From: an uncultured Flavobacteriales bacterium | GTDB lineage: Bacteria; Bacteroidota; Bacteroidia; Flavobacteriales_D; Sanyastnellaceae | DNA: 39,472 bases | Assembly: GCA_905478325.1 (NCBI GenBank) | Contig: CAJQIB010000018.1 | Span: forward strand, 1 to 39,472 | Reading direction: 5' to 3' | The notes under the pieces: model-generated | What the model was told of the DNA's origin: nothing | The model's input: only the letters and a program-made list of their open reading frames with translations | Database searches by the model: none | Shown: positions 27,104-39,472 of the stretch, piece after piece | How the letters are laid out: the number at the start of each line of letters is the position of its first letter | Position numbering within the stretch: position 1 is the first letter of the stretch | Made by a program: the position numbers and the translations under genes

Positions 27104-29521
27104 TTACTGACCGTCTTGAAATCCCCGCAAGCCCTGTTTGAATCGACTGTAGTCAATAAAGAATACTGCTCTGATAGACAGGCTGTTAACGAATCCTACT
27201 TCAATCATCTGTGCAAAGTTAGACCGATAGGAGTTGGGGAGGACTTCACCCTGGACGTCTTGCAATAAGTTGTTCTTCCAAACGACATTGATTTCGGAAC
27301 CCGGGGAGAAGATCCACCGATACACCAAGTCGATGCTCCATGCGTTGAAATTGACGTCGTATTCAGAAGTTCCATCAGATCTCAGGAGAACAGCATCGGT
27401 ATCGACCAAGACCCCGCTTTCCGGCAACATCAAAAAAGAATTTTTATAGCGCACTTGGCTCCAGGAGTGTCGGACCCGAGCTGACAAACTCATGCGATTG
27501 TTGAAAATATAATTGACGTTCAAGACTTGCGTACGCTCGATGTTGTCGCGTTGACCAAAGAGACTGATTGGAGGACCTTCCGGATCGCTGACGCTGTCGA
27601 TCAGCACATCTACCCAACCGCGCTCATTTGATTTTTGGATGATTTTCCAAACATATTTGACTGTCAAGCGGTCATTGAACCGAATCCGAGGTGCAATGCG
27701 AATGGTTTGTTCTTTCCAGTCCTTGTATAAAGCGCCAAAAGCGAGCCATCCACCCAAATCAATGGCGAGGCGTTTTCGGTAATCACTGCTGTACCAACTG
27801 TTCGCGACAACCCATGCGGGCTGCTTCCAAATCAAGCCGTCAATGCGGGAAGCGAAAAAATCGTTTCCCTGCGTGGGTTGACTGGAGAGTTCGACATTCC
27901 ATGTATTGAACAGTTTTGTGGTGGCGCGCCACCGCGCTTCAACGATCCATGAATTGAACATCCTGGGCGATTCGATGCGGTTATATTCCGTGTCCAGCGA
28001 CCAACTCATCCGATTGAATCGGCCAAAGGGTTCGTAGATCTTGTAAGAAACGGAGCCGAAGGTCACCGCTTCGTTGGGGGCTTCTAAGTAGCCCAAGTCG
28101 TTGGGGTCGAAATTTGCAGACTCTTCGGCGTGCCCGATGGAGTACGTTAGCTTTCCGGCCATTCTACTCGCCATGATGTTCCATGCATCTCCCTCGTCTC
28201 CCTCGTCGCCCTCGTCGCCCTCGTTTTCTTCGTTTGATGCCGCATTGAACTTGCGATTGAGCGCTCCCCCTCCTTCAAGGCTCCAGAGGTTTTTGCGGTC
28301 CCGAACCTCAAAACTCGCGGCTTGCACCCACGCGTCCATCCTTTCTCCTTCGCGCGCTACCAGCGTGCTGGTTGTTGTGACGTACCCATTGTTGGGCAGG
28401 TTTTGGTCTAAAACAGCCACGGAATACGATGTCATGGAGGAGTCGGCGTTTTCCCGAGCAAAAGCTTGCAGGATTCCGACGCCCAAGCCTCCTTTCGTTC
28501 TCCCCGATATCTTGGAGGCATTGAGTAGCTGCGCGTCTTCTCCGATTCGCCTGGAGTATACGATGCCACTTTTGTTAAAGAGTTCGGTTCCTTCTTTGAA
28601 GAATTGGCGGTTTTCATCAAACTGGATCTCGAATGGGGACAGGTTCAGCACCAAATTATCTGATACCACTTGACCAAAATCAGGAATCAAGGTCATGTCC
28701 AAGGTGAACGCATTGCCGAGTCCCACTTTCAAGTCCAAACCTCCATTGTACGATCCGGCCATCTCTCCATCCGAAGCTGTCGCGTACGAGCTGAAATAGG
28801 GAAATAAACTCAGTCTCAACGGCGGGTCAATTCCTTTGATTCCCTTGAGCACTCCTCCTTGGTTGAGCGTCTCTTGGGTGGGGTCCATGGGGTTCCAGAC
28901 GCTTTCTTCTCGAAGTCGCCTGATGCCGCGATAGAAGTTGATGCCCCAGATTTGCTCTTCGCTTTCGGGAAAACGAAAGGCCATCCAGGGGATGCGGAAC
29001 TCGGCAGTCCAACCGAGTGAGTCAATTTGGCAAGCCACGTCCCAAACGGCATCCCACGAAGCATCATTGTTTCCAGCGCTGAGCTGTTCGTCGCTTTGAA
29101 CGCCATCCGGTGTCGTGCTAAAGCGAACAGCATTGATGCCGTCATTGAAGGTGCTGAACCACACACCGAAATCATCGGCATTGAGTATTCGATCTCTTTG
29201 GGAAAGCTGGTGGAGAATGCTGTCAGGAGCGCTGTCCCACATGCGTGCACCGATGTACAGTGCGTCATCGTCATAGGCAAATCGCACATGGGTTTGATGA
29301 CTTGGAGACTCAAAGGGGTGCGGTGACAGCTGCGTGAAATCACCGGCTACAGGGACCTTGTTCCATCCCGTGTCATCAAGTTGGCCGTCCACGGAAATCG
29401 GTTGTTCTAGACGCACGGATTCAATCGAACGGATTGAGCGGTCTTGCGCTGCTGTTGATTGGGAGGCGAGCAGCCCAATGATGAGCAAAAAGCGAGGGGA
29501 GAAGTTGTTGGAGGTAGCCAT
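27104..29521 (-). CDS. DUF5916 outer-membrane protein with CBM9-like N-terminal domain
   Basis: 805 residues from the ATG at 29521 (MATSNNFSPRFLLIIGLLAS), which gives a signal peptide; 13 upstream codons are in frame. The first 230 residues hold a carbohydrate-binding family 9-like domain (ISVDGQLDDTGWNKVPVAGD; DALYIGARMWDS). The rest is a beta-barrel-like DUF5916 region with many alternating aromatic strands, for example LTVKYVWKIIQKSN and RMSLSARVRHSWSQVRYKN, ending in barrel-like strands. Function is unknown; it is an outer-membrane candidate. A run of EGD repeats (encoded at 28189-28224) is inserted in a likely loop. It follows mltG by 19 bases in the same direction. Confidence 0.85.
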   Translation of the reverse strand: MATSNNFSPRFLLIIGLLASQSTAAQDRSIRSIESVRLEQPISVDGQLDDTGWNKVPVAGDFTQLSPHPFESPSHQTHVRFAYDDDALYIGARMWDSAPDSILHQLSQRDRILNADDFGVWFSTFNDGINAVRFSTTPDGVQSDEQLSAGNNDASWDAVWDVACQIDSLGWTAEFRIPWMAFRFPESEEQIWGINFYRGIRRLREESVWNPMDPTQETLNQGGVLKGIKGIDPPLRLSLFPYFSSYATASDGEMAGSYNGGLDLKVGLGNAFTLDMTLIPDFGQVVSDNLVLNLSPFEIQFDENRQFFKEGTELFNKSGIVYSRRIGEDAQLLNASKISGRTKGGLGVGILQAFARENADSSMTSYSVAVLDQNLPNNGYVTTTSTLVAREGERMDAWVQAASFEVRDRKNLWSLEGGGALNRKFNAASNEENEGDEGDEGDEGDAWNIMASRMAGKLTYSIGHAEESANFDPNDLGYLEAPNEAVTFGSVSYKIYEPFGRFNRMSWSLDTEYNRIESPRMFNSWIVEARWRATTKLFNTWNVELSSQPTQGNDFFASRIDGLIWKQPAWVVANSWYSSDYRKRLAIDLGGWLAFGALYKDWKEQTIRIAPRIRFNDRLTVKYVWKIIQKSNERGWVDVLIDSVSDPEGPPISLFGQRDNIERTQVLNVNYIFNNRMSLSARVRHSWSQVRYKNSFLMLPESGVLVDTDAVLLRSDGTSEYDVNFNAWSIDLVYRWIFSPGSEINVVWKNNLLQDVQGEVLPNSYRSNFAQMIEVGFVNSLSIRAVFFIDYSRFKQGLRGFQDGQ
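28189..28224. repeat. 9-bp tandem repeat encoding EGD units
   Basis: Four 9-bp units, CTCCCTCGT twice and CGCCCTCGT twice on the plus strand, read on the minus strand as DEG repeats within the DUF5916 protein. Unit length is in frame, so changes would alter loop length only. Confidence 0.85.
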
Positions 29522-29540
29522 GGCTCCTTTAGGAACAAGG

Positions 29541-30515
29541 TTAACGGTAAATCTGTTCACGATTCAGCATGTTTTGCCACGCACGGGCATTCCGCAAGTG
29601 ATCCGCATAGCGAACGGCGAACGCATGCTTCCCAGATCCATCGGGTTTGGCACACATGTACAGGTAGGAGTGCTTCTCCGCATTGAGCACAGCGTCAATG
29701 TAGGAGGGTTCGGGGATGCGGATTGGTCCAGGAGGAAGACCGGGATTGAGGTAGGTGTTGTATGGCGAATTCACGCGTTTGTCTTTGTCCAAAAGCCGTT
29801 GAATTCCCCAATCACCTATGGCAAACTTGAGCGTAGGGTCGGCTTGAAGGAGCATGCCTTTTTTCAAACGATTCAAATACAAACCGGCTACGCGTGGAGC
29901 CTCATCGAGTCGTGCCGTTTCTTCTTGGACAATGGAGGCCAACGTGACCACCTCGCGAGCGGTGAGGTTCATGTCCCATGCTGTTGTGAGGCGATCTCGA
30001 TTCCACCATTTCTCACTTTCCCGGATCAACCTTGCTGCGACATCGTCAGCATCGGACTCCCAATACATGCGATAGGTGTTGGGTACAATGCGCCACAACA
30101 AGCTGTCAACATCAAGAGCGTGAACCAATGCCGCGCTATCCGCCCATACGCGCTTAGAAATGGCACCTGCAATTTCTTCTATGTGCCGCTTGGCAGGAAC
30201 GATTACGGGCATTTCATCCCGCTCTCCGGTCGCGATTCGTCGGGCGATGACATGGGCCGCAACAGGTCCGCTTTCACAATACCGGCCCGCACGAACACTC
30301 CACCCACGCCACGCGATGATTTGCGCAGCTTCCGGAAGCTGCGTTCCCCAATACGCTTCTGAATCGGGGTCCAACTCGTCCGGTCCGATATGAATGCACC
30401 AGGTGTCATCCGGTCCAACCGGTGCATGCCATAAGGTCCATTTCTCCCAGCCCCACAGTCCAGAAGCCCCACATCCAATGACCGCAATCATTCCAAAAAT
30501 GGCTTTCCACTTCAT
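29541..30515 (-). CDS. mltG: Endolytic transglycosylase MltG (YceG family)
   Basis: 324 residues. Inner-membrane enzyme that cleaves nascent glycan strands and is thought to set their length. The N-terminal helix (IFGMIAVIGCGASGLWG) anchors it. The YceG domain contains TLASIVQEET, where Glu199 aligns with the conserved catalytic Glu, followed by YLNRLKKGMLLQADPTLKFA, SPYNTYLNPGLPPGPI and HSYLYMCAKPDGSGKHAFAV. Overlaps the GNAT gene by ATGA upstream and is followed by the DUF5916 gene. The LysM domain seen in some MltG proteins is absent. Confidence 0.93.
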   Translation of the reverse strand: MKWKAIFGMIAVIGCGASGLWGWEKWTLWHAPVGPDDTWCIHIGPDELDPDSEAYWGTQLPEAAQIIAWRGWSVRAGRYCESGPVAAHVIARRIATGERDEMPVIVPAKRHIEEIAGAISKRVWADSAALVHALDVDSLLWRIVPNTYRMYWESDADDVAARLIRESEKWWNRDRLTTAWDMNLTAREVVTLASIVQEETARLDEAPRVAGLYLNRLKKGMLLQADPTLKFAIGDWGIQRLLDKDKRVNSPYNTYLNPGLPPGPIRIPEPSYIDAVLNAEKHSYLYMCAKPDGSGKHAFAVRYADHLRNARAWQNMLNREQIYR

Positions 30516-35494: not shown

Positions 35495-36859
35495 TCAGTC
35501 TTTTTGAAGCGCAGCTTTGTAGGTTTCGATAGCTTTCACACGAGCAACGGCGTGCTCAACAATGGGCTCAGCATAGGCGGATGTGTCATATTCAGGGACC
35601 CATTTCTGGATGTAAGTCGCCTGTCCGTCAAATTTGGCTTGCTGAGCTGTGGGGTTGAACACGCGGAAATAAGGCGCGGCATCGCAGCCGCATCCGGCCG
35701 CCCATTGCCAGCCGCCCACATTGCTCGCGAGATCATAGTCCAGTAAGTGTGCTGCGAAATGCTGTTCTCCCCAACGCCAATCAATGAGCAAGTGTTTGCA
35801 TAAGAAACTCGCAACCACCATACGCACGCGGTTGTGCATGAATCCCGTAGCCAGTAACTCTCGCATGCCCGCATCCACGATGGGGTAGCCCGTTTTTCCT
35901 GCGCACCACGCTGCAAAGTGTTCTTCGTCATTGCTCCAAGGAATGCGGTCGTACGCCGGCCGAAAGGAGTCTTTGGCGGCATGGGGAAAGTGGTACAGGA
36001 TCATTTGATAGAAATCCCTCCAAATCAATTCCATGACCCACTTTTCGCTTGCTTCAATGCCCTGACGATAGGCCGCGCGAATGCTGACAGTCCCGAACCT
36101 CAAATGCAACGAGAGGCGACTCGTTCCTGCCACAGCTGGAAAATCCCGTTGCTCAGCATATTGCTTCAGTATGCTCGAATCGATGCGGGGAGAAGGAATG
36201 CAAGCGTCCAGGTCTGAAGGAACTTCAAACCCCATGGAGGTCAATGATGGAATTTCCGGAGCGGTCCAATTCTCAGGAGACTCAAAACAGTTGTCCGACG
36301 CAGCGAGAAGCTCGATGGAATTCGCTGCGATGGTATCGTGTTCGCGGAGCGCTTCCTTCCACTTCCTGCTGTAAGGGGTAAATACAGTGTAAGGCAAGCC
36401 ATCTTTTTTCAGAACCTCATCCTTTTCGAGAATCACACCGTCTTTGACGCCTTTAAAGACAACGTCATGATTCCGAAATAATTCAGCCATCGAACGGTCG
36501 CGTTCCTGAGCGTACGGCTCATAATCTCGTGCAGTATGGACTTCTGAGATTTGCATAGAAGCTGCAGTAAAGTCTGTCAGCCATTGAGTCCACACTTCGG
36601 AAACCGTTCCATAACCAACCAAAAGTGAGGTGCCATATTCATTCAACTCGGTTTGAAGACGATGAAGCTCTCTGTGAATAAAAGCGACTCGACGATCTTG
36701 TTTATTCTGTAAGAGATCGAGGATGCCTCGATCAAAAATAAAGCAACAGATCACAGGATGTCCGCTTTTCAATGCGTTCACCAACGCACGGTTGTCTTGC
36801 AATCTCAAATCACGGCGCATCCAGTGAATGGCCACCGATTGAGAATTGGAATGTTTCAT
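35495..36859 (-). CDS. phrB: Deoxyribodipyrimidine photolyase, class I
   Basis: 454 residues. Uses blue light and FAD to split cyclobutane pyrimidine dimers. The N-terminal antenna domain starts VAIHWMRRDLRLQDNRALVN, and the FAD domain has TSRLSLHLRFGTVSIR, WRDFYQMILYHFP, TGYPIVDAGMRELLATGFMH followed by NRVRMVVASFLCKHLLIDWR, and WQWAAGCGCDAAPYFRVFNP. The sequence around the FAD pocket fits CPD photolyase rather than a cryptochrome. The 5' gap to the fasciclin gene (36860-36972) is divergent and holds no other gene. Confidence 0.95.
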   Translation of the reverse strand: MKHSNSQSVAIHWMRRDLRLQDNRALVNALKSGHPVICCFIFDRGILDLLQNKQDRRVAFIHRELHRLQTELNEYGTSLLVGYGTVSEVWTQWLTDFTAASMQISEVHTARDYEPYAQERDRSMAELFRNHDVVFKGVKDGVILEKDEVLKKDGLPYTVFTPYSRKWKEALREHDTIAANSIELLAASDNCFESPENWTAPEIPSLTSMGFEVPSDLDACIPSPRIDSSILKQYAEQRDFPAVAGTSRLSLHLRFGTVSIRAAYRQGIEASEKWVMELIWRDFYQMILYHFPHAAKDSFRPAYDRIPWSNDEEHFAAWCAGKTGYPIVDAGMRELLATGFMHNRVRMVVASFLCKHLLIDWRWGEQHFAAHLLDYDLASNVGGWQWAAGCGCDAAPYFRVFNPTAQQAKFDGQATYIQKWVPEYDTSAYAEPIVEHAVARVKAIETYKAALQKD

Positions 36860-36972
36860 TGTAGCATGACAATTTAGGACTGTGAAATGTTTTAAATGTT
36901 AAAGTATCAAAGGCCATTGAACTTAAGGAGGAGCAAAGCGGTTAATTTGCAAATCAAACTTATCTAAAAAAG

Positions 36973-38874
36973 ATGAAGCAATTTTTATTCTCTCTCGCAG
37001 TATTATTTACAATCTCGATCTCGGGACTTGTTGCCCAAGACAACCCATGTGGTGTTGAAGGCATTGTTGTCGAAGCAAGTAGCTACCAGTATGCCCCTTC
37101 CAGTTTGGAAATTGAGGCGGGTCAAACCGTAGTGTGGGTCAACATGGGCGGCTTTCATGACGTCAATGGAGTCGCTAGCTCAATCGGAACAACCTGGAAC
37201 AATCCTGAAACATTCGCATTTGACGCAGTCAATGGGAGTACCATGGGAACGTGTATCGGCTTCCAAACTTTCACAGTCGAAGGAACGTACGATTATGACT
37301 GTGCCATTGGTAACCACGCTGAACAAGGCATGGTGGCTTCGGTCACGGTGATCGCACCTCCTTCAAACACAGTAGTGGATATCATCGTGAATAGCGAAGA
37401 TCACACTTTGTTAGAAGCAGCCGTTGGAGCAGCTGGTTTGGTCGATGCGCTAAACGGAGACGGTCCGTTTACAGTATTTGCACCTACAGATGCAGCTATT
37501 GTTGCGTTGACAGAAGTCTTGGAAATAACAGCTGAAGAGTTGTTGGCATTGCCCAACTTGGGAGATATTTTGCAATACCACGTAGTGGCTGCATCGGCCT
37601 TTTCTACGGATTTGACAGACGGTCAGATGATCGGTACGTTGCAAGGATTGGATGTAACGGTGACCATCAACATGGACGGCGTCTTCATCAATGAAGCGAT
37701 GGTAACGGTAGCAGACATTGCTGCGGACAACGGAGTCGTGCATGTGATTGACGCGGTCTTGTTGCCGCCAGCTCCTGTATCCAACACGGTTGTGGATGTT
37801 ATCGTGAATAGCGAAGACCACACTGTTTTGGAAGCCGCCGTTCTTGCCGCTGATTTAGCGGGTGCATTGAGTGCAGAAGGTCCTTTTACAGTCTTCGCTC
37901 CAACCGATGCAGCTTTCACTGCATTGATGGAAGCATTGGAAGTCTCAGCAGAAGAGCTGCTCGCTTTTGAAGGTTTGACAGATGTTCTTCTTTACCACGT
38001 TGTTGGCGCACAAGCGTTGGCAGCAGACTTGTCAGATGGTCAGGAGATTACGACGCTTTTGGATCAAGATGTCACAATCACAATCAATGGCATGGGTGTG
38101 TTCGTCAATCAGGCGATGGTAACCGTAGCGGATATTGTGGCCGATAACGGTGTAGTGCACGTCATTGATGCGGTTCTTCTTCCAGAGTTGGATGAGAACC
38201 TTCCTGAAACAGTTGTTGACATCATTGTAGCCAGTGAGGTTCACACGTTGTTGGAAGCAGCAGTCGTTGCAGCAGGTTTGGTTGACGCGTTGAGCGGAGA
38301 AGGTCCCTTCACGGTATTTGCTCCGACTGATGATGCCATTGTTGCATTGACTGAAGCACTTTCCATCACAGCAGAAGAGTTACTGGCTCTGCCAAACCTC
38401 GGTGAGATTTTACAATATCACGTTGTGGCTGCTGATGCGTTTGCTGAAGATTTGAGTGATGGACAGTTGCTGACAACCCTTTTGGGCCAGGACGTGACGG
38501 TATCAATCAGTGATGCTGGAGTGATGATCAATGATGCGATGGTGATTGTTGCCGATTTGGAAGCAGAGAATGGCGTTGTCCACGTGATTGACGCGGTATT
38601 GTTGCCACCAGCCTCGAACTTGGATGAGGTTCAAGTTCAGTTGGAATGTACGGTCTATCCAAATCCTTTGGTTGGCGGAGTGTTGAACGTTCAAGGCAAT
38701 TGGGCAATGGGAGCACAGTTTACCATCACTGATCTTCAAGGTCGCATGGTCGCTCAATCCATTCTCCAATCGAATCAAATCCAATGGGATGCGAGTGGCT
38801 TGGAATCGGGTGTATACGCGATCACGGTAGCCGAAGGCGTTCAGTTTGAAACGGTTCAGTTTGTAATTCGTTAA
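36973..38874 (+). CDS. Secreted cupredoxin-FAS1(x3) protein with T9SS sorting domain
   Basis: 633 residues. The signal peptide (FLFSLAVLFTISISGLVAQ) leads to a cupredoxin-like domain (about 25-128) with a full type-1 copper set: His62 in GGFHDV, Cys110, His115 and Met120 in DYDCAIGNHAEQGM. Three fasciclin (FAS1) domains follow at about 133-264, 272-404 and 413-544, each with GPFTVFAPTD and NGVVHVIDAVLLP. From 558 a T9SS type A domain (VYPNP, then FTITDLQGRMVAQ and SGVYAITVAEG) directs it to the cell surface. FAS1 domains mediate adhesion; the copper domain adds electron transfer or copper binding. The ATG follows an A-rich leader (CTAAAAAAG); TTAATTTG upstream is only a near -7 box. Confidence 0.9.
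   Translation: MKQFLFSLAVLFTISISGLVAQDNPCGVEGIVVEASSYQYAPSSLEIEAGQTVVWVNMGGFHDVNGVASSIGTTWNNPETFAFDAVNGSTMGTCIGFQTFTVEGTYDYDCAIGNHAEQGMVASVTVIAPPSNTVVDIIVNSEDHTLLEAAVGAAGLVDALNGDGPFTVFAPTDAAIVALTEVLEITAEELLALPNLGDILQYHVVAASAFSTDLTDGQMIGTLQGLDVTVTINMDGVFINEAMVTVADIAADNGVVHVIDAVLLPPAPVSNTVVDVIVNSEDHTVLEAAVLAADLAGALSAEGPFTVFAPTDAAFTALMEALEVSAEELLAFEGLTDVLLYHVVGAQALAADLSDGQEITTLLDQDVTITINGMGVFVNQAMVTVADIVADNGVVHVIDAVLLPELDENLPETVVDIIVASEVHTLLEAAVVAAGLVDALSGEGPFTVFAPTDDAIVALTEALSITAEELLALPNLGEILQYHVVAADAFAEDLSDGQLLTTLLGQDVTVSISDAGVMINDAMVIVADLEAENGVVHVIDAVLLPPASNLDEVQVQLECTVYPNPLVGGVLNVQGNWAMGAQFTITDLQGRMVAQSILQSNQIQWDASGLESGVYAITVAEGVQFETVQFVIR
37369..38604 (+). repeat. Three tandem FAS1-coding units
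   Basis: Units at about 37369-37764, 37786-38184 and 38209-38604 encode three FAS1 copies. Each begins TVVDxIVxSExHT and ends DNGVVHVIDA or ENGVVHVIDA. Units 1 and 3 share longer stretches (AIVALTE, TAEELLALPNLG, ILQYHVVAA) that unit 2 lacks. Confidence 0.85.
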
Positions 38875-38956: not shown

Positions 38957-39472
38957 TTAATGATCGAAGAGAGAAGCCATGGCCTCATCAAGGGTTGGAT
39001 GCTTAAATTCAAATCCCGCTTGTTCAACTTTAGAAGAGGCAACGCGATTTGATGCCAACAACACCTCACTCATGTCTCCAAAGACTGTTTTCAAAATCCA
39101 TGAAGGAACGGATGGGAAGAAGAATGGACGTTTTAGGGCAACGGCCAGTGCTTTTGAAAATGTGCGATTTTGAACAGGGTTGGGGCTCGCGGCGTTGTAA
39201 ACACCGGATATGCCTTCGGATTGGATCGCCCAGAGAATCATCTGGGATAGATCCTCAATATGAATCCACGATTGCCATTGCTCTCCGGTTCCAATCGGCG
39301 AACCCAATCCCAAAGAAAAGAGGGGCTTGAGTGAACCAATAATGCCTCCTGAGGCAGCGAGTACCAATCCAATTCTCAATCGAACGGTCCGGCATCCTAG
39401 AGCTTCCGCTTTTAAGGCAGCGTGTTCCCATACCTGCACGACCTCTGAGGCAAATCCATCACCTGAGGGAGC
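38957..39472 (-). CDS. SDR39U1-type (TIGR01777) NAD-dependent epimerase, partial
   Basis: C-terminal 171 residues of a short-chain dehydrogenase/reductase-type epimerase; the start is beyond the window edge, and the frame is open there. Visible features are SGDGFASEVVQVWEHAALKA, RTVRLRIGLVLAASGGI, SPIGTGEQWQSWIHIEDLSQ and the DUF1731-like C-terminus (SVPSWILKTVFGDMSEVLLA then SNRVASSKVEQAGFEFKHPT). The N-terminal NAD-binding motif is not in the window. Enzyme activity in this family is undefined; sulA-like division proteins are a distant alternative name only. Confidence 0.88.
   Translation of the reverse strand, partial: APSGDGFASEVVQVWEHAALKAEALGCRTVRLRIGLVLAASGGIIGSLKPLFSLGLGSPIGTGEQWQSWIHIEDLSQMILWAIQSEGISGVYNAASPNPVQNRTFSKALAVALKRPFFFPSVPSWILKTVFGDMSEVLLASNRVASSKVEQAGFEFKHPTLDEAMASLFDH

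Follow-up and report, generated by a model that had tools for sequence, protein, structure and literature searches.

The window, by which we mean the whole stretch of 39,472 nucleotides that was analysed, comes from an organism that is probably a marine bacterium. Close to its end it encodes a protein in which an N-terminal cupredoxin domain is followed by three FAS1 domains and, at the C-terminus, a T9SS sorting tail, hereafter the fusion protein. The gene, its immediate neighbours and the features discussed below are as follows.

35495..36859, − strand: DNA photolyase of 454 aa, divergent from the fusion gene (PF00875 and PF03441)
36919..36943, + strand: promoter-like element GAAC-N18-GTT, 29 bases ahead of the fusion start codon
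36973..38874, + strand: cupredoxin, three FAS1 domains and T9SS tail, 633 aa, an uninterrupted open reading frame
36973..37035, + strand: signal peptide, about residues 1-21, assigned by eye from the sequence
37045..37356, + strand: cupredoxin domain, residues 25-128, from Pfam, alignment and structure model
37156-37158, + strand: copper ligand H62
37300-37302, + strand: copper ligand C110
37315-37317, + strand: copper ligand H115
37330-37332, + strand: copper ligand M120
37369..37770, + strand: FAS1 domain 1, about residues 133-266
37789..38190, + strand: FAS1 domain 2, about residues 273-406
38209..38610, + strand: FAS1 domain 3, about residues 413-546
38653..38868, + strand: T9SS type A sorting domain, residues 561-632
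38957..39472, − strand: TIGR01777-family SDR with DUF1731, convergent neighbour, cut by the window end (the whole gene is seen in locus L074)

An earlier note had described three FAS1 domains and a T9SS sorting domain behind the cupredoxin, and profile searches confirmed this order with scores above the cut-offs of both libraries. In Pfam, Copper-bind (PF00127) was found at residues 33-126 with 29.6 bits against a cut-off of 21.2, Fasciclin (PF02469) in three stretches with 296 bits against a curated cut-off of 22, and Por_Secre_tail (PF18962) at residues 561-632 with 37.7 bits against a cut-off of 27, while the NCBIfam model of the C-terminal sorting domain (TIGR04183) gave 39.3 bits at a cut-off of 23. 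By sequence comparison, TGFBI, periostin and CupS are closer to the FAS1 domains than is AstaP (8c18), which is nevertheless matched with an E value of 3.9e-16. Orthologs of the fusion protein likewise carry a hydrophobic N-terminus ahead of an AQDN-like junction. As SprA (TIGR04189), the one T9SS component that was searched, is encoded in the same genome with a score over the cut-off, surface export is a reasonable inference, and the protein is apparently directed to the cell surface, its predicted location. An AlphaFold model of the full-length protein reached a mean pLDDT of 51.8, which is too weak to show how the cupredoxin and the FAS1 domains are arranged.

The cupredoxin domain and its copper site

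The putative copper ligands are arranged as C110-x4-H115-x4-M120 with H62 upstream. The earlier note had called this set complete; its residue numbers are correct, and all four residues are invariant in 14 aligned proteins, that of the window included. C26 and C94 are invariant in the same 14 proteins and may form a disulfide. Residues 21-130 were modelled with AlphaFold2, giving a cupredoxin beta-sandwich predicted without metal (mean pLDDT 96.6, pTM 0.89), and in an HMM alignment to 6yez the four residues H62, C110, H115 and M120 pair with the His/Cys/His/Met set of plastocyanin. Foldseek and VIA-align were applied to the model of this domain only; the top VIA-align match was plastocyanin 2plt, with a Z score of 13.2 and an rmsd of 1.4 over 87 residues at 28% identity. 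Against the NCBIfam equivalog for plastocyanin proper (TIGR02656), the score was 24 bits at a cut-off of 87.85, and the Cys-His loop of the fusion cupredoxin is two residues longer than that of plastocyanin. By its ligand set, the domain is predicted to bind copper.

The same genome holds further copies of this domain. A second cupredoxin-FAS1 protein, the C49 paralog (L069 6372-8660, − strand, 762 aa), carries two FAS1 domains and a broken copper site; an ECF sigma factor gene lies two open reading frames downstream of it (L069 5018-5581, − strand). The domain also occurs within an LTD-domain protein of 1329 aa (L070 4211-8200, − strand) and a T9SS protein of 207 aa (L071 7348-7971, + strand), and is thus a mobile module in the family. 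In an alignment of 33 cupredoxin domains, in which the C49 type is represented by two sequences, one from the window's own genome (L002/L069) and its relative L039 from another genome, Ser replaces the Cys and Gln the second His in this type, whereas the paralogs in the LTD-domain protein (L004) and in the 207-aa protein (L005) retain the full ligand set. Since the C49-type domain, otherwise similar, has lost the Cys and the second His, an intact copper site is not kept by default.

Distribution of the fusion and linkage to a photolyase gene

A close copy of the cupredoxin (at least 68% identity over the matched part) is present in 19 of the 22 genomes of the window's genus, its own included. 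None was found in genus genomes G003, G018 and G021, the second of which is 99% complete. FAS1 follows in the same stretch in 18 of these 19 genomes, and in the remaining one (G020) the contig breaks off within the cupredoxin. Fusion proteins differ in their FAS1 count, with two domains in L018 and four in L079. Outside the genus, the fusion was read in G029 (genus g9), in G033 (g13) and in four genomes of g3; among 20 further cupredoxin reading frames of the family, FAS1 matches were seen in four, all from g3, and 16 had none.

In a sample of 392 genomes of the phylum, for which at most three candidates per genome were scored and rare fusions can have been missed, matches to the fusion protein were obtained in 192 genomes; among the matches listed outside the own genome, none starts before query residue 118, so that the cupredoxin is left uncovered. 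The public records that contain the fusion bear titles of Flavobacteriales or Crocinitomicaceae MAGs, and since several overlap the counted genomes they were not added. The cupredoxin-FAS1 fusion looks rare: it was read in four genera, all of the same GTDB family, and among the matches listed for the 392 genomes none outside the own genome covers it, in keeping with the suggestion of the earlier note that it is unusual. No account of it was found in the available parts of the open-licence literature, where papers on FAS1 and cupredoxins included none that was bacterial by title and the listed papers on fasciclin, plastocyanin and T9SS concerned plants, judging by title or the start of the abstract. 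Wide occurrence with a known function, which the earlier note had named as an argument against its reading, was accordingly seen neither among the matches listed nor in those parts of the literature.

The photolyase gene is divergent from the fusion gene at 24 of 25 loci overall. These comprise the window, all 12 fetched regions and all six further loci of the genus, the single g13 locus (L088) and all four g3 loci; the g9 locus (L085) lacks the pairing. For this photolyase, the nearest NCBIfam model is the 8-HDF type, scored below its cut-off. On the other side of the fusion gene, the SDR is found in nine of 12 genus regions; in L083 it comes after a broken copy of the fusion gene, and L076 stops at the contig end. 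A Flavobacteriales MAG (L049) shows the same order of CoA-transferase, photolyase and FAS1 genes, and its FAS1 protein has eight such domains and a T9SS tail. L049 and the fetched Saprospiraceae relatives gave no cupredoxin match. The order in L049 without a cupredoxin suggests that the copper domain may have joined a FAS1 gene that was already linked to a photolyase. A linkage of FAS1 and photolyase genes throughout the Bacteroidota was also considered and rejected, with no case among 20 multi-FAS1 loci from elsewhere in the phylum sample, and no photolyase match was found at five single-FAS1 loci of Vibrio and Idiomarina.

Further genes of the region and of the genome are worth recording. 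A DUF5916 protein of 818 aa, conserved in the region, is encoded at window positions 27104-29560 (− strand). Beyond the SDR, and kept in several neighbourhoods, lies a gene for a protein of 692 aa with an LVIVD repeat and two metal-binding motifs of the Cu-binding_MopE type (L074 4195-6273, + strand); this motif, predicted two genes away from the fusion gene, was the sole copper-named match among the neighbours run against Pfam, which included no cytochrome or oxidase family. At the C31 locus (L072 4780-11191, + strand), a second photolyase/FAS1 neighbourhood of the same genome, genes for DPRP (photolyase-related), CRY-DASH and a T9SS protein with three FAS1 domains lie close together. The genome also encodes a rhodopsin.

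A promoter-like element ahead of the fusion gene

When the 5' regions of the fusion genes are aligned, little else is conserved besides the element GAAC-N17/18-GTT. It stands at a similar distance ahead of 21 of 21 copies and of all four g3 copies, 25 of 25 in total, with a spacer of 17 bases in 17 copies and of 18 in eight. Copies within one genus are non-independent events and two of the 21 elements are identical, but the DNA around them has diverged enough for the element to stand out. It heads the list of counted two-block motifs of its shape; in 40 shuffles, the count of any motif stayed at or below 7/21.

The element is shared with other genes. It precedes a second photolyase gene (G000:C20) at all 12 genus loci where the N-terminus of that gene was present, and is lacking in the outgroup L196. 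A search of 16 genus genomes yielded close copies of this photolyase in all but G008, G010 and G011. Ahead of a START-like gene (G000:C56), which has a weak Polyketide_cyc2 match below the cut-off, the element is found in 16 of 17 genus loci, always at −32/−33; the one locus without it is a short match in G010. Six order-level relatives have no element at this place, though one of them has a copy at −68. As a control, 13 other genes of the syntenic regions were inspected at 7 to 13 loci each, and 11 of these genes gave no match. The adjacent photolyase of the window's genus has the element in 4/13 loci only, and the gene at 27104 in 5/11 at scattered positions. In g3 (L215-L218), elements also face the adjacent photolyase (4/4), hinting at co-regulation of the two genes in that genus.

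Genome-wide, the bare pattern TGAAC-N17/18-GTTM is not enriched: it occurs at 69 places, the reversed control at 148. The context of all 69 places, and of 30 of the 39 places of a second pattern, was judged with crude ORF calls. Two of the TGAAC...GTTM places ahead of genes, both hand-chosen, were compared in relatives, namely those of the second photolyase and the START-like gene, and both proved conserved. Other matches before genes, inspected in the own genome only, precede an adenosylhomocysteinase, an LTD protein and others. The second pattern also led to a gene for a protein that has a T9SS tail and weakly matches deiodinase, below the cut-off (L278 1551-2645, + strand; C31:10961 of the own genome). 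Here the element occurs in six of 19 genus loci, of which five belong to the closest relatives, and is lineage-limited at best. The element is absent before the cupredoxin paralogs of L069, L070 and L071, the FAS1 and DPRP genes of L072 and the FAS1 gene of L049.

With its two short blocks, GAAC-N17/18-GTT resembles the −35/−10 geometry of ECF sigma promoters, and we infer that it is the −35/−10 pair of an ECF-type alternative sigma factor. LexA boxes have spacers of 4 or 8; as the spacer of 17/18 is unlike these, a LexA box was set aside. A dimeric operator in place of a promoter would account for those copies that form GAACC...GGTTC palindromes, but in our judgement the variation of the spacer between 17 and 18 and the loose base after GTT make it the less fitting description. 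The genome has eight Sigma70_r2 genes. For seven of them the roughly 260 bases upstream contain no element, and the eighth, L124, has one at −167; no cognate pair of ECF sigma and anti-sigma factor was assigned among these eight genes. Nor did the open-licence literature yield a promoter motif of the Bacteroidetes that connects ECF sigma factors, photolyase and light. The promoter sequence of R. sphaeroides RpoE differs from GAAC-N17/18-GTT.

Possible role and relation to known systems

The photolyase-linked element ahead of the fusion gene suggests that the protein serves in light or oxidative stress and not in adhesion alone. We consider it about an even chance that the fusion protein is the surface blue-copper/fasciclin member of a stress regulon that contains photolyase, made under light or oxidative damage, with the FAS1 domains as a stalk and the copper site for redox chemistry or binding. 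This reading draws on the responses of R. sphaeroides and M. kansasii, on a link between photolyase and proteorhodopsin in flavobacteria and on the rhodopsin of the organism itself. According to the available text of the respective reports, the RpoE/singlet-oxygen regulon of R. sphaeroides contains phrA and the fasciclin RSP_1409 (PMC7074977), light-exposed M. kansasii raises phrB 32-fold, mpk83 6-fold and mpk70 3-fold (PMC9861118), and in two single-cell flavobacterial genomes photolyase-like genes are linked to proteorhodopsin (PMC2668756). In M. kansasii the fasciclin genes thus rose far less than phrB, for which the authors saw no clear reason in the text available (PMC9861118).

Other explanations of the same observations have to be weighed against this reading. 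As the earlier note proposed, the protein might be a surface adhesin that handles copper or performs redox reactions at attachment sites; in this view nothing would tie it particularly to light or oxidative damage. Adhesion is the role usually assigned to FAS1 domains, and the T9SS tail, the intact ligands and the Cu-binding_MopE motif two genes away would also agree with this view. The conserved neighbour is nonetheless a photolyase and the element is common to a second one, and with a single copper-named match among the neighbours run against Pfam, copper handling hardly emerges as an organising theme; we therefore regard this explanation as rather unlikely. That the cupredoxin has only a structural role in an otherwise ordinary FAS1 adhesin, or is a vestige there, could be argued from its mobility in the family, where it turns up in the LTD-domain and the 207-aa T9SS protein, and from the persistence of the C49 paralog with a broken site. 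It is however at odds with ligands that are invariant in 14 aligned proteins and kept in the LTD and 207-aa paralogs, which renders it unlikely.

Loop spacing leads to another proposal, in which the cupredoxin would act as an outer-surface electron carrier, similar to auracyanin or rusticyanin, in extracellular electron transfer. Plastocyanin has C-x2-H-x4-M, whereas the C-x4-H-x4-M of the fusion protein also occurs in auracyanin, rusticyanin and phytocyanins, and the modelled fold is of the plastocyanin type. Neighbours without cytochrome or oxidase families in the Pfam run, and a fusion to FAS1 domains and a sorting tail that is unlike a diffusing carrier, make this quite improbable in our eyes. 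The FAS1 domains could finally bind carotenoid as a light screen, like the algal AstaP, with the cupredoxin being secondary, a proposal in line with the AstaP match and the light-linked gene context. We hold it to be highly improbable, given the better matches to TGFBI, periostin and CupS and the finding, in the available text of PMC10147662, that a cyanobacterial homolog bound no carotenoids when tested.

If the fusion protein does belong to a photolyase-containing stress regulon, an ECF-type alternative sigma factor would read the GAAC-N17/18-GTT element of its gene, and light, singlet oxygen or oxidative damage of a related kind would set off the regulon. Made under such stress, the protein would then be put on the cell surface, where its FAS1 domains may serve as a stalk or adhesive matrix and its blue-copper centre as a redox or copper-binding site. 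This centre might accept electrons from radicals or reduced species or, alternatively, sequester copper that would otherwise drive radical chemistry. Extended to rhodopsin-bearing marine Bacteroidota, an ECF regulon induced by light or singlet oxygen could send a blue-copper shield on a fasciclin stalk to the surface to intercept radicals or copper, while photolyases mend the DNA inside; we put this forward as a tentative idea that is possible rather than probable. If true, the surface shield would provide the first testable chemistry for the fasciclin proteins of light-stress regulons, as fasciclin genes appear in the light and singlet-oxygen responses of unrelated bacteria with a role that the available text of the reports leaves unexplained (PMC7074977, PMC9861118). 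The intact copper site, the adjacent photolyase and the shared element together pose a testable question, namely whether a surface copper centre takes part in a bacterial photo-oxidative stress response.

Among known proteins, the plastocyanin/azurin family (PF00127; nearest folds plastocyanin and amicyanin) likewise has the cupredoxin fold and the His/Cys/His/Met order. The fusion protein differs from it in the C-x4-H-x4-M loop, the additional invariant C26 and C94 and the joining to FAS1 domains and a T9SS tail. With multi-FAS1 proteins such as TGFBI, periostin and bacterial FAS1-T9SS proteins it has tandem FAS1 domains in common, and the FAS1-T9SS gene of L049 also adjoins a photolyase, but the N-terminal copper domain sets it apart. 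To our knowledge, neither RSP_1409 carries a copper domain nor AstaP a cupredoxin. AstaP, described in the available text of PMC10147662 as a fasciclin that binds carotenoids, shares the FAS1 domain. The RpoE-ChrR regulon of R. sphaeroides unites photolyase and fasciclin in one stress regulon, as we propose here (PMC7074977, available text); it belongs to another phylum, and the parallel lies in gene content.
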